This document shows positions 6,790 through 11,133 of a DNA stretch of 64,000 nucleotides, one piece after another. Under the pieces are notes generated by a model that was not told where the DNA came from, did no database searches, and saw only the letters and a list, made by a program, of their open reading frames with translations. The position numbers were made by a program, and so were the translations under genes. The stretch is taken from contig NZ_FNKY01000001.1 in the NCBI RefSeq assembly GCF_900103165.1, positions 806,001 through 870,000 on the forward strand. The letters are read 5' to 3'. This DNA is from Nitrosospira multiformis. Lineage in GTDB: Bacteria; Pseudomonadota; Gammaproteobacteria; Burkholderiales; Nitrosomonadaceae. Numbering within the stretch: position 1 is the stretch's first letter; each line of letters starts with the position of its first letter.

Positions 6790-7212
6790 TCACTTAGCTA
6801 CCTGTTTTTCCCTTATCTCGTCAAGAGTCTTGCAGTCTATGCAGAGAGTGGCAGTGGGCCGGGCTTCAAGGCGCTTCAGGCCAATTTCAATGCCGCAACT
6901 ATCGCAATAACCATAATCGCCAGTGTCTATTTTGGCAATGGTCTCATCAATTTTCTTGATTAATTTACGCTCGCGGTCACGATTGCGTAATTCCAGCGCC
7001 ATGTCTGACTCCTGGCTGGCACGATCGTTAGGATCGGCGAAAATCGTCGCTTCATCCTGCATGGTATGCACCGTGCGATCGATATCCTGCCCTAATTCAA
7101 TTTTAATACCTTCCAGTATGTTGCGAAAATGCATAAGCTGCCTGGAACTCATGTAGCTTTCCCCCTTCTTCAGCTTATAAGGGGTCGCTGGTTTACGCAG
7201 TTCTTGCGGCAT
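6790..7212 (-). CDS. dksA: RNA polymerase-binding transcription factor DksA
   Basis: DksA binds the RNA polymerase secondary channel and works with ppGpp to reset rRNA and amino-acid promoters. The 140-residue protein has the N-terminal coiled coil with the [26 protein letters not shown]-type tip, including the functional Asp-x-x-Asp region. It ends in a four-cysteine zinc finger (CDSCG ... CIDC) and a helical tail. A second in-frame methionine (MSSRQLMHF) is 20 residues in, but the first start keeps the usual length. It faces pnp and shares its terminator. Confidence 0.96.
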
Positions 7213-7755
7213 TTTTAATATCCCTTTTATATTTCAGGTGACGTATAAAGGTACTTTTACAGAAAAGAATATTATACAGCAATACGCTTGCTATTCGTCC
7301 GCCGCGACATGCGGCTAAAGTCAATTCTAACCCATATAAGAGTTTGTAGATAACTTCGGAGTCAGTCAGTTTGCATGAACCCCACCCGCACGAAAGCACG
7401 AATTTTTGCAGAATTCCTATTGCTTGGATACCCCTGGAATAAAATAAATGCCACATTTCTCAAAATCGTCCATAAACGATGACCATCGCTATGAGTATTC
7501 TTCTCGTGGTTACCGCGCCGTGACCGGCCAGGTGCGACAATTTGTCGCACCTGGCCGAAAATTGTGCTATGTTACTTATGGCCATTATTTGCTCTGCCGG
7601 GTGCTTCAATAATGGTTGAGATTGTTTAGGGTATCCGCGCGCGTCGAGACCTGGTTGCAGAAGAAAGAGAGCAAGTTTGTGGGTTGCTACGACAAGTGCG
7701 GTTTTCTATCAGAGTGCAACGCAACATCCCCCTATATATACAGGAGAAGAAAATC
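7213..7755. other. Long regulatory gap between dksA and the RiPP cluster
   Basis: This 543-bp divergent gap holds no convincing gene; the small frames seen in it lack a ribosome-binding site or any family features. It contains the perfect 15-bp inverted repeat listed at 7526-7556, and the ribosome-binding site AGGAGA just before the first precursor. The 3' 200 bases probably carry the promoter of the precursor genes. I could not place a clear -35/-10 pair or a full sigma-54 site: TGGC...TTGC near 7577-7592 has GG-N9-GC instead of the required N10. Confidence 0.5.
7526..7556. promoter_or_regulatory. Perfect 15-bp inverted repeat, possible operator
   Basis: GGCCAGGTGCGACAA at 7526-7540 is matched exactly by its reverse complement at 7542-7556, with one central T. 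The inner core is TGCGACAA-T-TTGTCGCA. There is no T-run after it in either direction, so an intrinsic terminator is unlikely. Its place about 200 bp before the first RiPP precursor and about 315 bp before dksA suggests a binding site for a dimeric regulator or an RNA hairpin. The cognate protein is unknown. Confidence 0.5.
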
Positions 7756-8136
7756 ATGTCTAACAGAAAATCCGTTATTTCCATAGCCGTTGGTTCTGCT
7801 TTCGTTGCTAGCCTTGGTGGTGCACCGGTCGTTTCCGCGGCTGACAGCCCCTTTGCCGTGCAATCTCTCGACAGGGGCTACATGGTAGCCGATGCGCATA
7901 AATATGGCGAAAAGAAGGGTGGAGAAGGTAAATGCGGTGGTCAGGGTGCATGTGGCGAAGGGAGGTGTGGCGCGGCTATGGCGGATGCAAACAATGATGG
8001 TAAGATCAGCAAAGAAGAATGGACCACGCATCACAACGCCATGTTCGAAAATATGGATGCCAATAAAGACGGCTTTGTCAGCAAAGATGAGATAAAGGGG
8101 AAAACGAAAGACGGCAAGTGTGGAGGCAGCAAGTAA
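7756..8136 (+). CDS. hvfA: Exported HvfA-like RiPP precursor with EF-hands (4 Cys)
   Basis: A 126-residue exported protein that I read as a metal-binding RiPP precursor of the HvfA/bufferin type. Residues 1-28 form a signal peptide ending near VSA. A leader-like PFAVQSLDRGYMVA segment follows (residues 32-45). Next comes a glycine-rich core with EGKCG (57-61), GACG (64-67) and EGRCG (68-72), plus DGKCG near the end (119-123); the cysteines are 60, 66, 71 and 122. Between them are two canonical EF-hand loops, residues 77-88 and 101-112, each with Asp at 1, Asn at 3, Asp at 5, Gly at 6 and Glu at 12. The start is the ATG at 7756 with AGGAGA upstream; the frame is open to 7684 but that extension has no ribosome-binding site and would spoil the signal peptide. 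In the related HvfA proteins, cysteines of EGKCG motifs are converted by the DUF692 enzyme. Modification here is inferred. Confidence 0.85.
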   Translation: MSNRKSVISIAVGSAFVASLGGAPVVSAADSPFAVQSLDRGYMVADAHKYGEKKGGEGKCGGQGACGEGRCGAAMADANNDGKISKEEWTTHHNAMFENMDANKDGFVSKDEIKGKTKDGKCGGSK

Positions 8137-8279
8137 GAGATAATTTTTCGAGCTGGGGGCGATTTTTCTGAGCGCGGTTTTCACACGGGAAGTCGACCCC
8201 TAGCTAAGCCCGTCCTCCAATCTCCAATTCCTCTTGAATTGTGACATAATATTTCATCCAAAATTTAGGAGAAAATATC

Positions 8280-8687
8280 ATGCGCAATAAGAAAACCATG
8301 ATTTCCCTGGCTGTGGGTTCCGCTTTTGCAGCTACGCTCGGTGCGGCGCCACTCGCCTCGGCGACTGATAATCCTTTCATCGCGCAATCCCTGGATAAAG
8401 GCATCATGCTCGCGTATGCCGATAAAGTGGATCCCAATAAATATGGGGGTGGAGCAAAATCCGGTGAAGGCCGATGCGGCATGTCGATGGTGGACACCAA
8501 CAAGGATGGCAAAGTCACGAAGCAGGAATTCCTGAAACATCACGAGGTCATATTTGACAGGATGGATACCAACAAGGATGGCGCTGTCGATCAGCCTGAG
8601 GCTGACAGCTATGGAGGAGCCAAACCCGCCGCACCCCATGCGCCCGGCGCACCCAGTACAGCGCCCCATGGCGGGATGAAGAAGTAA
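8280..8687 (+). CDS. hvfA: Exported HvfA-like RiPP precursor with EF-hands (1 Cys)
   Basis: A 135-residue paralogue of the preceding gene. The signal peptide (residues 1-28, ending LASA) and the leader segment NPFIAQSLDKGIMLAYA match the first copy. Only one cysteine remains, Cys66 in EGRCG (63-67). Two perfect EF-hand loops follow at residues 72-83 and 96-107. The C-terminus differs: a Pro/Ala/His-rich tail (about 114-135, with APHAPGAP and APHGG) replaces the second Cys motif. AGGAG lies 9 bases before the ATG. It is 143 bp after the first copy and 10 bp before the maturase gene, so it should be co-transcribed with the enzymes. A simple EF-hand calcium-binding protein is the alternative, but the EGRCG motif and the next two genes argue for a RiPP substrate. 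Confidence 0.85.
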   Translation: MRNKKTMISLAVGSAFAATLGAAPLASATDNPFIAQSLDKGIMLAYADKVDPNKYGGGAKSGEGRCGMSMVDTNKDGKVTKQEFLKHHEVIFDRMDTNKDGAVDQPEADSYGGAKPAAPHAPGAPSTAPHGGMKK

Positions 8688-8697
8688 TTCCCGATCC

Positions 8698-9552
8698 GTG
8701 GTGGAATCCCTGTGCCGTGCCAGCGTAGGGCTGGGCTTTCGGCGGGAATTAATTCCTGAGCTAGAAAAGTGTGTTCCCGCCGCTATCGACTTCTTTGAAA
8801 TCGCGCCGGAAAACTGGATCGATTTCGGTGGTGTGACGGGGCGGGATTTGCGCCGCTTCACGGAGCGTTACCCCTTTGTCTGTCATGGACTCTCACTCTC
8901 CATTGGTAGCCCGGCGCCGTTGGATGAGGAGTTGCTGCACAAGATCCGGCAATTCCTGGATCAGCATCAGATTTCCCTTTATACAGAACATCTCTCGTAC
9001 TGTTCCGATGATGGTCATCTCTATGATTTGCTTCCCATACCCTTTACCGAAGAAGCAGTGAAATATGTTGCCGCACGCATTCGCCGTGCTCAAGATATCC
9101 TGGGGCGTCGCATTGCGCTGGAAAATGCCTCGTTTTACGTGCGATCGCCTATTACCGAAATGAGTGAAGCAGACTTTATCCGCGCTGTATTAACCGAAGC
9201 GGATTGCGACCTGCATCTTGACATCAACAACGTGTACGTCAACAGCGTTAATCATGCTTATGATCCCATCGAATTTATCTGCGCGATGCCTACGGAACGC
9301 ATTGTCTACATGCATATGGCCGGACATTACCATGAAGCGGAAAATCTGATTATCGACACTCATGGCGCGGACGTAATCGATCCGGTATGGTCATTGCTGG
9401 ATCAAACTTACCGCATTCACGGCATAGCGCCCACGTTGCTGGAGCGTGACTTCAATATTCCCCCCCTGCATGAACTGATGCATGAGGTCGAGCGCATCGG
9501 TCTGGCTCAGACTCGATATGCGGGTGCGAACCATGTCCGCGCCGCTTCCTGA
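8698..9552 (+). CDS. hvfB: MNIO-type RiPP maturase (DUF692, HvfB/BufB family)
   Basis: The 284-residue protein is a DUF692 enzyme, now called a multinuclear non-heme iron-dependent oxidase. Family members fold as a TIM-like barrel with two or three iron ions and modify cysteines of ribosomal peptides, for example to oxazolone/thioamide groups in HvfA. Metal-ligand and signature motifs are visible in order: EIAPENW (start of barrel), CHGLSLSIG, TEHLSYCS, LLPIPFTEEA, LENASFY, LDINNVYVNSVNH, MHMAGH, DTHGADV and LLERDFNIP. Translation starts at a GTG (8698; a second GTG follows at once) 10 bp after the second precursor. The 3' end overlaps the DUF2063 partner gene by 20 bp, indicating coupling. 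Confidence 0.93.
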   Translation: MVESLCRASVGLGFRRELIPELEKCVPAAIDFFEIAPENWIDFGGVTGRDLRRFTERYPFVCHGLSLSIGSPAPLDEELLHKIRQFLDQHQISLYTEHLSYCSDDGHLYDLLPIPFTEEAVKYVAARIRRAQDILGRRIALENASFYVRSPITEMSEADFIRAVLTEADCDLHLDINNVYVNSVNHAYDPIEFICAMPTERIVYMHMAGHYHEAENLIIDTHGADVIDPVWSLLDQTYRIHGIAPTLLERDFNIPPLHELMHEVERIGLAQTRYAGANHVRAAS

Positions 9553-10288
9553 ATTTCAGCGCTTCCAGTACGCCTTTACCGCACATATCCGTGACCCTAA
9601 GGCGAACGCTTGTCCGCGTGGCGTTGAAGCAGCGCGTATGCGGATATATAGAAGGCTGGTTTACAACAACGTTGAGAGCTTCCTGTTGACCTGCTTTCCC
9701 GTACTCAGAAAAGTACTTGGAACGCGTCGTTGGAGGAGGCTCGTGCGTGCGTTCCTTGCCATGCATCGCAGCCGCTCGCCTTTTTTCAGGGAAATACCTG
9801 ATGAGTTTATTCAGTTCCTGCAAACGGAATGGACGTCACCGGCGGATTATCCGGAATTCATGCTGGAACTTGCGCATTATGAATGGGTGGAACTGGTGCT
9901 ATCCGTCTCAACGGATACTCCGGATTGGGACCGCATCGATCCCGGCGGCAGCCTGCTGGAACAATGTCCCGCTCTAAACCCGGCACTCGCCAATCTTTGT
10001 TACCGGTGGCCCGTGCATCGTATCAGCCCGCGCGCACGAACCATGCCAATAGAAACCTATTTACTGGTATTCCGCGATAACAGCGATCAGATTCGATTCA
10101 CCGAAATCAACGCATTTACCTCGCGGCTAATGAGCCTGTTAGAAACCGCCGAGCATACAGGTCAAACGGCACTCGAAATTGTTGCCACGGAAAGTCATCA
10201 TCCCTCGCCTGAAGTCGTGATTCAGGGAGGGCTGGCAATTATGCGTGATTTACAGGCGCGGGGCGCGCTGCTGGGTGTTCTGCGTTAG
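9533..10288 (+). CDS. hvfC: DUF2063 RiPP maturation partner (HvfC/BufC family)
   Basis: The 251-residue protein belongs to the DUF2063 family, the usual partner of DUF692 maturases; it is thought to recognise the precursor leader and present it to the oxidase. The N-terminal domain shows the family pattern PEFQRFQYAFTAHIRDP, then RRLVYNNVESFLLTCFPVLRKVLG and SPFFREIPDEFIQFL. The C-terminal half is a mixed fold with TYLLVFRD-like strands. The ATG at 9533 is chosen because the family begins with the LPEFQ segment; the frame is open to 9482 but that part only overlaps hvfB. No DoxX-like membrane gene, common in bufferin operons, follows. Confidence 0.9.
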   Translation: MSAPLPEFQRFQYAFTAHIRDPKANACPRGVEAARMRIYRRLVYNNVESFLLTCFPVLRKVLGTRRWRRLVRAFLAMHRSRSPFFREIPDEFIQFLQTEWTSPADYPEFMLELAHYEWVELVLSVSTDTPDWDRIDPGGSLLEQCPALNPALANLCYRWPVHRISPRARTMPIETYLLVFRDNSDQIRFTEINAFTSRLMSLLETAEHTGQTALEIVATESHHPSPEVVIQGGLAIMRDLQARGALLGVLR

Positions 10289-10500
10289 GGGACACAATGT
10301 AATGCGCCGGGTTTCTCCGTAACTCGAAGCGAGTTTCCCGCATTCCCGGGCAGTATGAATACCCCCAACGCGGAAATCAGAGACCTCCCGCCGAACACCG
10401 GAGTTTGCATCTCTGAGCATCGTATTTCTCTCGTTTCTGCAAATTGGGGTATGAGATATGACAAAAACTTGATCATTATGACGGCACATACGAACATCAC
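10289..10500. other. Spacer after the RiPP cluster, nothing recognised
   Basis: This 212-bp gap separates hvfC from an unrelated methyltransferase. I see no clear terminator hairpin, promoter or small gene in it. Confidence 0.3.
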
Positions 10501-11133
10501 ATGAAGCTCGACCCGCTGGACCTGAAGAATATTTCTTCCCTTACGCTCGCCCACTACAACGAGCACGCTGAGCATTTCTGGGAAGGAACGAAAGATCATG
10601 ACGTCGGCCAGAATATCGCGGCGTTGCTGAAATACATCGAGGGTAAATCACCTTATACCATACTGGATTTTGGCTGCGGACCGGGCCGTGATCTCAAGGT
10701 ATTTACCGAACTCGGCCATATCGCGATCGGACTTGAGGGTGCACCGCGCTTCGTTGAGATGGCTCGCAGTCATACCGGCTGTGAAGTGTGGCACCAGGAT
10801 TTTCTCGGACTCGATTTGCCGCATGAATACTTCGACGGCATATTCGCTAATGCTTCGCTGTTTCATGTTCCCGGCAGTGAGCTGCCACGTGTGCTGACGG
10901 AGTTGTGTAACACGCTGAAACCGGGCGGCGTGCTGTTCAGTTCCAACCCGCGCGGGAACGACGAAGAGGGCTGGACCCACGGGCGTTATGGCGTATATCA
11001 TGATATTGAAAGGTGGCGAGGCTATATGGCCGCTGCCGAATTCGTCGAAATTACCCACTATTACCGTCCCGTCGGCCGGCCGTGCGCGCAGCAGCCGTGG
11101 TTTGCCAGCGTATGGCGCAAGGTGGGGGAGTAG
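10501..11133 (+). CDS. Class I SAM-dependent methyltransferase
   Basis: A 210-residue Rossmann-fold methyltransferase of unknown substrate. SAM-binding motif I is ILDFGCGPGRDLKVF (about residues 55-69) and the acidic residue ending strand 2 is in IGLEGAPRFVEMA. Motif II/III regions are visible as YFDGIFANASLFHVP and LKPGGVLFSSNPRG. The C-terminus has the WRGYMAAAEFVEITHYYRP pattern common to UbiE/Tam-like stand-alone enzymes. It lies 30 bp upstream of the flavoprotein gene. Its position after the RiPP cluster is probably coincidental given the 212-bp gap, although a role in peptide modification cannot be excluded from sequence. Confidence 0.85.
   Translation: MKLDPLDLKNISSLTLAHYNEHAEHFWEGTKDHDVGQNIAALLKYIEGKSPYTILDFGCGPGRDLKVFTELGHIAIGLEGAPRFVEMARSHTGCEVWHQDFLGLDLPHEYFDGIFANASLFHVPGSELPRVLTELCNTLKPGGVLFSSNPRGNDEEGWTHGRYGVYHDIERWRGYMAAAEFVEITHYYRPVGRPCAQQPWFASVWRKVGE

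Follow-up and report, generated by a model that had tools for sequence, protein, structure and literature searches.

The window analysed here is a stretch of 64,000 nucleotides from Nitrosospira multiformis (contig NZ_FNKY01000001.1, positions 806,001 to 870,000), and the system in question is an operon within it, in which two genes for exported precursor-like proteins, P1 and P2, are followed by genes for an MNIO enzyme (DUF692, PF05114) and its DUF2063 partner (Table 1). P1 and P2 are 51% identical (62 of 121 aligned residues) and have in common the segment [NS]PFxxQSLD[RK]GxMxA behind an N-terminus that looked like a signal peptide as judged by eye, without a predictor. All four cysteine residues of P1 lie in CG motifs (EGKCG, GACG, EGRCG and DGKCG in order), and the sole cysteine residue of P2 lies in EGRCG. 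The Pfam profile EF-hand_5 recognised both proteins (48.9 bits for P1 and 37.9 bits for P2; cut-off 25.9), both EF-hand loops are canonical in each, and none of 20,000 letter shuffles of either protein contained two EF loops together with EGxCG. AlphaFold2, run on ten sequences, gave a model of low overall confidence (mean predicted local distance difference test score 52.4) that was confident only in the EF-hand pair (blocks of 70–79 there and <50 for residues 1–37), with one turn (MSMV) ahead of loop 1 and EGRCG without structure.

An earlier sequence-only reading had described tandem EF-hand proteins, each with a signal peptide, an NPF leader and EGKCG/EGRCG motifs, ahead of DUF692 and DUF2063 genes overlapping by 20 bp, and had placed them in an ammonia oxidiser. 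The signal-like N-termini, the EGxCG motif and the two loops were found in each protein, but the leader of P1 has SPF in place of NPF, and P2 has one EGxCG motif only, the EGRCG. The order of the enzyme genes is right, as is their overlap if the DUF2063 gene starts at ATG 9533 (its longest open reading frame runs from 9482). The host was also correctly named: P2 is 88% identical to a Nitrosospira sp. NpAV protein, and the genome has three ammonia mono-oxygenase (PF02461) genes of equal score (C1:556577, C1:3079119 and C1:3471628).

The MNIO passed the HvfB equivalog profile (436.7 bits; cut-off 360) and the DUF2063 protein passed that of HvfC (279.8 bits; cut-off 142), their nearest solved relatives being 3BWW and 3DEE respectively. 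PF05114 has one match in the whole genome, and the MNIO gene begins 10 bp after the P2 stop codon, with the precursor gene directly upstream. R15-R16 and an Asp-Phe pair (251–252) of the MNIO appear, from their motif context rather than an alignment, to match Arg15, Arg16, Asp249 and Phe250 of FonB, which have been linked to EGKCG substrates (PMC13097082). The precursors themselves fell short of the HvfA equivalog (10.4 bits for P1, cut-off 95; P2 absent from the matches listed) and of KCGExKCG_twice (18.5 and 14.2 of 19.5 bits). Three other families were tried and rejected: the bufferins (268.1 of the 310 bits of BufB for the MNIO, and no DUF2282 match), lanmodulin (22.7 and 21.6 of the 135 bits of the LanM equivalog, far below the cut-off) and XopAW (again far below). 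We therefore read the locus, with a probability of about 0.72, as an HvfABC-type (captophorin) operon of the EGKCG/EF-hand chimaera subclass, whose products would most likely reside in the periplasm and combine thiooxazole(s) with Ca2+ loops on the same polypeptide.

Table 1. Features of the operon, in window coordinates
Feature	Positions	Strand	Basis or remark
P1, exported precursor-like protein	7756-8136	+	126 aa, 4 Cys, two EF-hand loops
P1 leader-like segment SPFAVQSLDRGYMVA	7846-7890	+	sequence; P and F invariant in A1
P1 EGKCG (Cys60), then GACG (Cys66)	7924-7938	+	sequence
P1 EGRCG (Cys71)	7957-7971	+	spacer of four residues to EF loop 1
P1 EF-hand loop 1 DANNDGKISKEE	7984-8019	+	Pfam and sequence
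P1 EF-hand loop 2 DANKDGFVSKDE	8056-8091	+	Pfam and sequence
P1 DGKCG (Cys122)	8110-8124	+	C-terminal of EF loop 2
Probable P2 promoter element TGTGACATAATATT, including extended -10-like TGACATAAT	8240-8253	+	conservation; putative function
P2, exported precursor-like protein	8280-8687	+	135 aa, single Cys, two EF-hand loops
P2 leader-like segment NPFIAQSLDKGIMLA	8370-8414	+	sequence
P2 EGRCG (Cys66)	8466-8480	+	spacer of four residues to EF loop 1
P2 EF-hand loop 1 DTNKDGKVTKQE, then FLKHH	8493-8528	+	Pfam and sequence
P2 EF-hand loop 2 DTNKDGAVDQPE	8565-8600	+	Pfam and sequence
HvfB-type MNIO (DUF692) maturase	8698-9552	+	GTG start; equivalog match
HvfC-type partner (DUF2063 and NGO1945_C)	9533-10288	+	profile matches; longest open reading frame from 9482

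Distribution, register and loss of the motif

We searched 120 Nitrosomonadaceae genomes and read gene contexts in fetched stretches. PF05114 was found in 93 of them, including all 23 Nitrosospira genomes (our own counted), and in each of these 23 a chimaera lies upstream of the maturase gene. Seven of the 23 operons have P1 and P2, twelve have P2 alone (within the fetched stretch), one has a P1-type precursor alone (G054) and three have an EF-less EGKCG peptide with P2. P2 is the commoner precursor, present in 22 of the 23 with the motif cysteine in each. At the three mixed loci (L057, L067 and L071, from G022, G048 and G058) a 74-residue peptide with three EGKCG motifs occupies the P1 position beside the P2 chimaera, and one maturase pair is found with two precursor types. 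EF-less EGKCG precursors are likewise present at 36 Nitrosomonas loci (the 30 best, L002-L031, and L086-L091), and thus the maturase needs no EF-hands. Also in Nitrosomonas, a chimaera lies upstream of a second MNIO gene in G086 (L085), just after HvfC in G093, and not beside the enzymes in the stretches fetched from G045, G063, G065, G077, G087 and G109. Each of the eight loci fetched from group g2 (L075-L082) encodes a chimaera, in which EGxCG-type motifs number two or three.

In a set of 369 genomes of the class, 134 had an A1 match (E ≤ 1e-4) and 222 had an MNIO. All 11 genomes outside the family with a chimaera, as recognised by eye, have an MNIO (0.004 if independent, from the base rate of 222/369), in the same fetched stretch as the chimaera in seven and not in four (G163, G199, G304 and G452). 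A distant family, f14, was represented by 149 genomes, 138 with an A3 match (E ≤ 1e-8) and 118 with an MNIO. Its 70 best A3 matches, from 66 genomes, about half of which were fetched and read, lie directly upstream of an MNIO gene on the same strand in 67 cases, at 37–303 bp, and elsewhere in three. A match as strong as these was obtained for 66 of the 118 f14 genomes with an MNIO and for none of the 31 without (Fisher p 6e-10, kinship ignored), and EGxCG was seen in none of four fetched from among the best matches of the latter, as far as the printed parts extend.

The motif keeps a preferred register with the first EF-hand. A1 (16 proteins) shows no variation in the E, G, C and G of the motif or in the leading Asp of loop 1. 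Among 61 fetched Nitrosomonadaceae proteins with the cysteine, 60 place four residues between CG and loop 1, and one has five (G116, 80% complete). In f14 (n=39) this spacer was 4 in 28 proteins, 7 in seven, and 10, 11, 16 and 26 in one each; in the rest of the class (n=10) it was 4 in four, and 6, 7, 8, 13, 14 and 17 in one each, two of these ten (G452 and G460) being without a proper EGxCG ahead of loop 1. The register is thus not universal, and the counts are not independent, as many rows are kin. The f14 set consisted of 37 proteins from 40 stretches, fetched so that each genus represented by the best matches contributed roughly one, with a few repeats, and of two more proteins; the filler G503, G509 (no CG ahead of loop 1) and G613 (CG 34 residues off) were excluded. 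An EGxCG-type motif also follows the last EF loop in 32 of 38 f14 chimaeras, as in P1.

Histidine residues after loop 1 were also counted. In the Nitrosomonadaceae Cys proteins His is found at +4 in 61/61 and at +5 in 50/61; elsewhere, 33 of the 39 f14 proteins have it at +5, and nine of ten others at one of these two positions. The corresponding counts after loop 1 of 12 EF-hand proteins away from MNIO were two at +4 and none at +5 (six and five over all 46 loops). A special role for these residues is weakened twice, by the 18 relatives without EGxCG in reach, ten of which have His at +4 and 11 at +5, and by the second loop of the f14 proteins, which is followed by His at +4 in 19/39 and at +5 in 18/39.

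The motif cysteine has been lost in kin without the maturase. Seven genomes of a sister genus, g4 (G004, G008, G012, G016, G024, G028 and G032; 99, 87, 97, 92, 79, 72 and 99% complete, G032 with 8% contamination), keep a P2 orthologue in which Tyr replaces the cysteine in 7/7, the motif reading EDKYG, GGGYG or GGKYG. Six of the seven have no PF05114 and no HvfC match, and G008 has a distant MNIO, 32% identical to that of the window, with an HvfC-like match (44.9 of 142 bits) far below the cut-off. The two histidines are also replaced (YN) in six of the seven, and the NPF leader, by eye, is kept only in G004. In a tree of 84 rows and 124 columns the seven proteins fall inside the P2 clade (99/91), the 22 other members of which have the cysteine, indicating that it was lost in g4.

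Interpretation of the operon

Enzymes of the HvfB/HvfC type form 5-thiooxazoles and their products bind copper (PMC13097082, PMC13419390); FonA lost 8 Da for two sites (PMC13097082). By analogy with these characterised relatives, HvfC would deliver P1 and P2 to HvfB in the cytosol, as HvfBC and FonBC suggest, HvfB would convert the EGxCG cysteines into 5-thiooxazoles, and Sec would export the chains by means of their signal-like N-termini. In the periplasm the EF-hand pair may then bind Ca2+ and fold, the loops being canonical and Ca2+ binding being published for EfhP, and the thiooxazole adjoining loop 1, together with the others in P1, would bind copper. On this scheme P1 would offer several copper sites and P2 just one.

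Several observations weigh against this reading. FonBC modified a two-repeat peptide in vitro and left a one-repeat peptide unmodified (PMC13097082), and the single-Cys P2 may therefore be a poor substrate. The seven g4 proteins form one clade (93/75), which makes their loss of cysteine roughly a single event, and completeness is below 90% for three of these genomes. Nitrosomonas G063 (99% complete) has neither a PF05114 nor an HvfC match but still carries EGKCG, and a 15-kb stretch around its copy contains neither enzyme gene. G116 (80% complete), with no match for PF05114 or HvfC either, has retained a cysteine shifted by one residue from the register. The leader-like segment is also present on Cys-free or motif-free LTXXQ-type proteins and is thus no proof of maturation; we dropped it as a mark of maturation, since proteins without EGxCG carry it too. 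Finally, one or more A1 matches (E ≤ 1e-10) lie outside the operon in all 23 Nitrosospira genomes, so that adjacency to the operon is not needed. The ten unlinked copies fetched, from nine Nitrosospira genomes, all have EGRCG in register 4. The third chimaera of our own genome (C1:1435463-1435942; L122:4464-4943), of which there are similar copies in other Nitrosospira, has a single EGRCG in the same register and the tail HMKPMGE, and lies ~620 kb from the only MNIO gene. The sequence-only reading had held that wide occurrence of such EF-hand proteins without a DUF692 gene nearby would count against it; the unlinked copies in Nitrosospira bear this out in part, but at the level of whole genomes the MNIO accompanied the chimaera in 11/11 cases outside the family.

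Some further relatives were seen in the fetched stretches. Next to the unlinked G060 copy is a protein (L175:2501-2917) with the same leader and tail, EGRSG with Ser for Cys, and no EF-hands. Five Nitrosomonas stretches (L152, L154, L155, L156 and L181) hold EF-hand relatives with a His-rich N-terminus, HQC replacing EGxCG and KHH after a loop, possibly another metal-binding version. The same signal and leader-like segments precede LTXXQ-type (CpxP/Spy-like) proteins at L157:889-1557, L158:513-1181, L159:485-1153 and L230:491-1159 (the label comes from a Pfam run on L230 only), in which the motif is degenerate (DGKYGEGQRGEC, GQYGEGKGSG); they belong to three MNIO-less Nitrosomonas and one g2 genome with an MNIO.

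The EF-hands might be a folding device only, with low cytosolic Ca2+ keeping the chain unfolded for HvfBC and Sec, periplasmic Ca2+ folding it, and no crosstalk between calcium and copper. This would suit the export of an enzyme-modified chain and agrees with a model confident only in the EF pair, but it leaves unexplained why most members hold the modified site in one register to loop 1, and we consider it rather unlikely. We also regard as unlikely, and slightly more so, that calcium sensing or buffering comes first, the EF pair doing the physiological work and the modified cysteines only tuning it, for example by sensing iron, copper or redox state. In its favour, EfhP of Pseudomonas aeruginosa binds Ca2+ at 13.7 µM and mediates calcium regulation (PMC9132961), dual Ca/Fe sensing has been proposed for its EGKCG cysteines (PMC11559002), and the EF-hand protein must have some use without modification because the HvfB-less g4 genomes keep it without the cysteine; on the other side stand the EF-less precursors of the three Nitrosospira and the 36 Nitrosomonas loci. 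That P2 is an unmodified relic or decoy with one free cysteine, P1 being the only real substrate, would agree with the single-repeat FonA result in vitro (PMC13097082) but is improbable given that P2 is so widely kept in Nitrosospira, often alone and always with its motif cysteine, and that exactly this residue became Tyr in the HvfB-less g4.

Returning to the captophorin-type chimaera, a metal link between thiooxazole and EF-hand is possible, and we put forward the coupling of copper to calcium or to folding as a hypothesis. In its most specific form the modified cysteine would be part of EF-hand 1: EGxCG would stand in for the opening turns of the entering helix and be phased with loop 1 along that helix, the thiooxazole and the His residues at +4/+5 on the exiting helix would form a calcium-gated copper site, and the geometry of this site would shift when Ca2+ opens the EF-hand. 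The spacer series 4, 7, 10–11 would suit a helix; it was noticed post hoc and the longer spacers are few. We find this form doubtful, the loop-2 His counts in f14 having lowered its odds.

Ammonia oxidisers depend on copper enzymes, and a periplasmic copper buffer in such an organism would be of physiological interest. The preferred register between motif cysteine and loop 1, together with the loss of this cysteine without the maturase, allows what was a loose fusion to be tested as a two-metal module, for which the single-Cys P2 is a simple test object.

Probable promoter element and neighbouring genes

The element TGTGACATAATATT lies 37–41 nt ahead of the start in 22/22 Nitrosospira P2 genes. 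It is exact in no other upstream stretch of the set, in which some starts are mis-set (e.g. G024, and L160 of G005), occurs with one change in two g2 genes, and has its sole exact copy in our own genome here. As it contains the extended -10-like TGACATAAT, P2 and HvfBC probably have their own promoter inside the operon. A sigma-70 consensus scan of 7213-10500 returned no promoter-like site (shuffles mean 3.5), the same interval has a single terminator-like site, within HvfC (mean of shuffles 3.3), and Rfam gave no match at 7000-10600.

A class I methyltransferase gene (10501-11133; weak PADLOC mad2 match) was considered and dropped as a tailoring gene. Of the 22 Nitrosospira loci fetched (L052-L073), 20 have this gene 3' of HvfC; none of the 11 loci from g2, g3 (Nitrosomonas) or g4 (L075-L085) does. 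Gap lengths from the comparison of loci are unreliable, as the stop of HvfC is mis-set in several. The gene at 6790-7212 on the other side of the operon, the product of which we take to be DksA-like, persists at 21 of those 22 Nitrosospira loci, so that plain synteny may explain the linkage.

Comparison with known systems

EGKCG precursors are of two types, and the EGKCG/EF-hand chimaera class was named by Antoine et al. 2025 (PMC12452194). The locus has a short EGKCG region, free of 17-residue repeats, a C-terminal pair of EF-hand_5 domains and a precursor gene directly upstream of that of the MNIO, and belongs to this already described class: it is real as an observation and known as a class. 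The EGxCG/EF-hand fusion described in the sequence-only reading is thus not upheld as new, the EfhP context having also been reported (PMC4053335, PMC11559002). That reading's proposal of a modified metal-binding RiPP (ribosomally synthesised and post-translationally modified peptide) is sustained as far as the HvfBC-type operon with EGxCG/EF-hand precursors, and for the modification itself it leans on relatives that carry copper-binding 5-thiooxazoles (PMC13097082). In the literature searched, we found no paper joining Nitrosospira with DUF692, and PMC12452194 was the sole paper, as far as the available texts go, both for EF-hand with thiooxazole and for EF-hand, multinuclear, RiPP and copper together. 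In the available parts of the literature consulted, modification has been examined for none of the MNIO-linked EF-hand proteins and Ca2+ binding reported for EfhP alone.

Among the more distant systems, the bufferins Buf1/Buf2 are also Sec-exported MNIO substrates tied to copper (PMC12452194), but have DUF2282 or 6/12-Cys precursors. The captophorins, namely HvfABC/oxazolin, fontiphorin and gonophorin, agree with the locus in their EGKCG core motif and in the families, HvfB and HvfC, of their enzymes (PMC13097082, PMC13419390), and the locus has the HvfB equivalog and the HvfC/PME1 partner of an HvfABC operon without a precursor of the HvfA equivalog. Captophorin precursors are EGKCG repeat peptides, with no mention of EF-hands in the available parts of these papers. 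EfhP (PA4107), whose gene was noted in 2014 to adjoin DUF692 and DUF2063 genes (PMC4053335), is closer. Like the proteins here, it is a predicted periplasmic protein with two EF-hands, canonical at our locus, and EGKCG, in a probable operon with PA4106/PA4105 (PMC4053335, PMC9132961, PMC11559002). Compared by description rather than full sequence, it differs in being one gene, not two, and in carrying four EGKCG, as reported in 2024 (PMC11559002).

The chimaera class itself agrees with the locus in its N-terminal membrane or signal segment, short EGKCG region, two EF-hand_5 domains and MNIO and DUF2063 neighbours (PMC12452194); the locus differs in its two tandem paralogues, one of them with a single Cys, and in being from Nitrosospira. 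A fixed register and the loss of cysteine in HvfB-less kin are not mentioned for the class in the available part of that paper. Within this known class, the points to take further are the preferred spacing of motif and loop, P2 with its lone cysteine, and the disappearance of that cysteine in g4.

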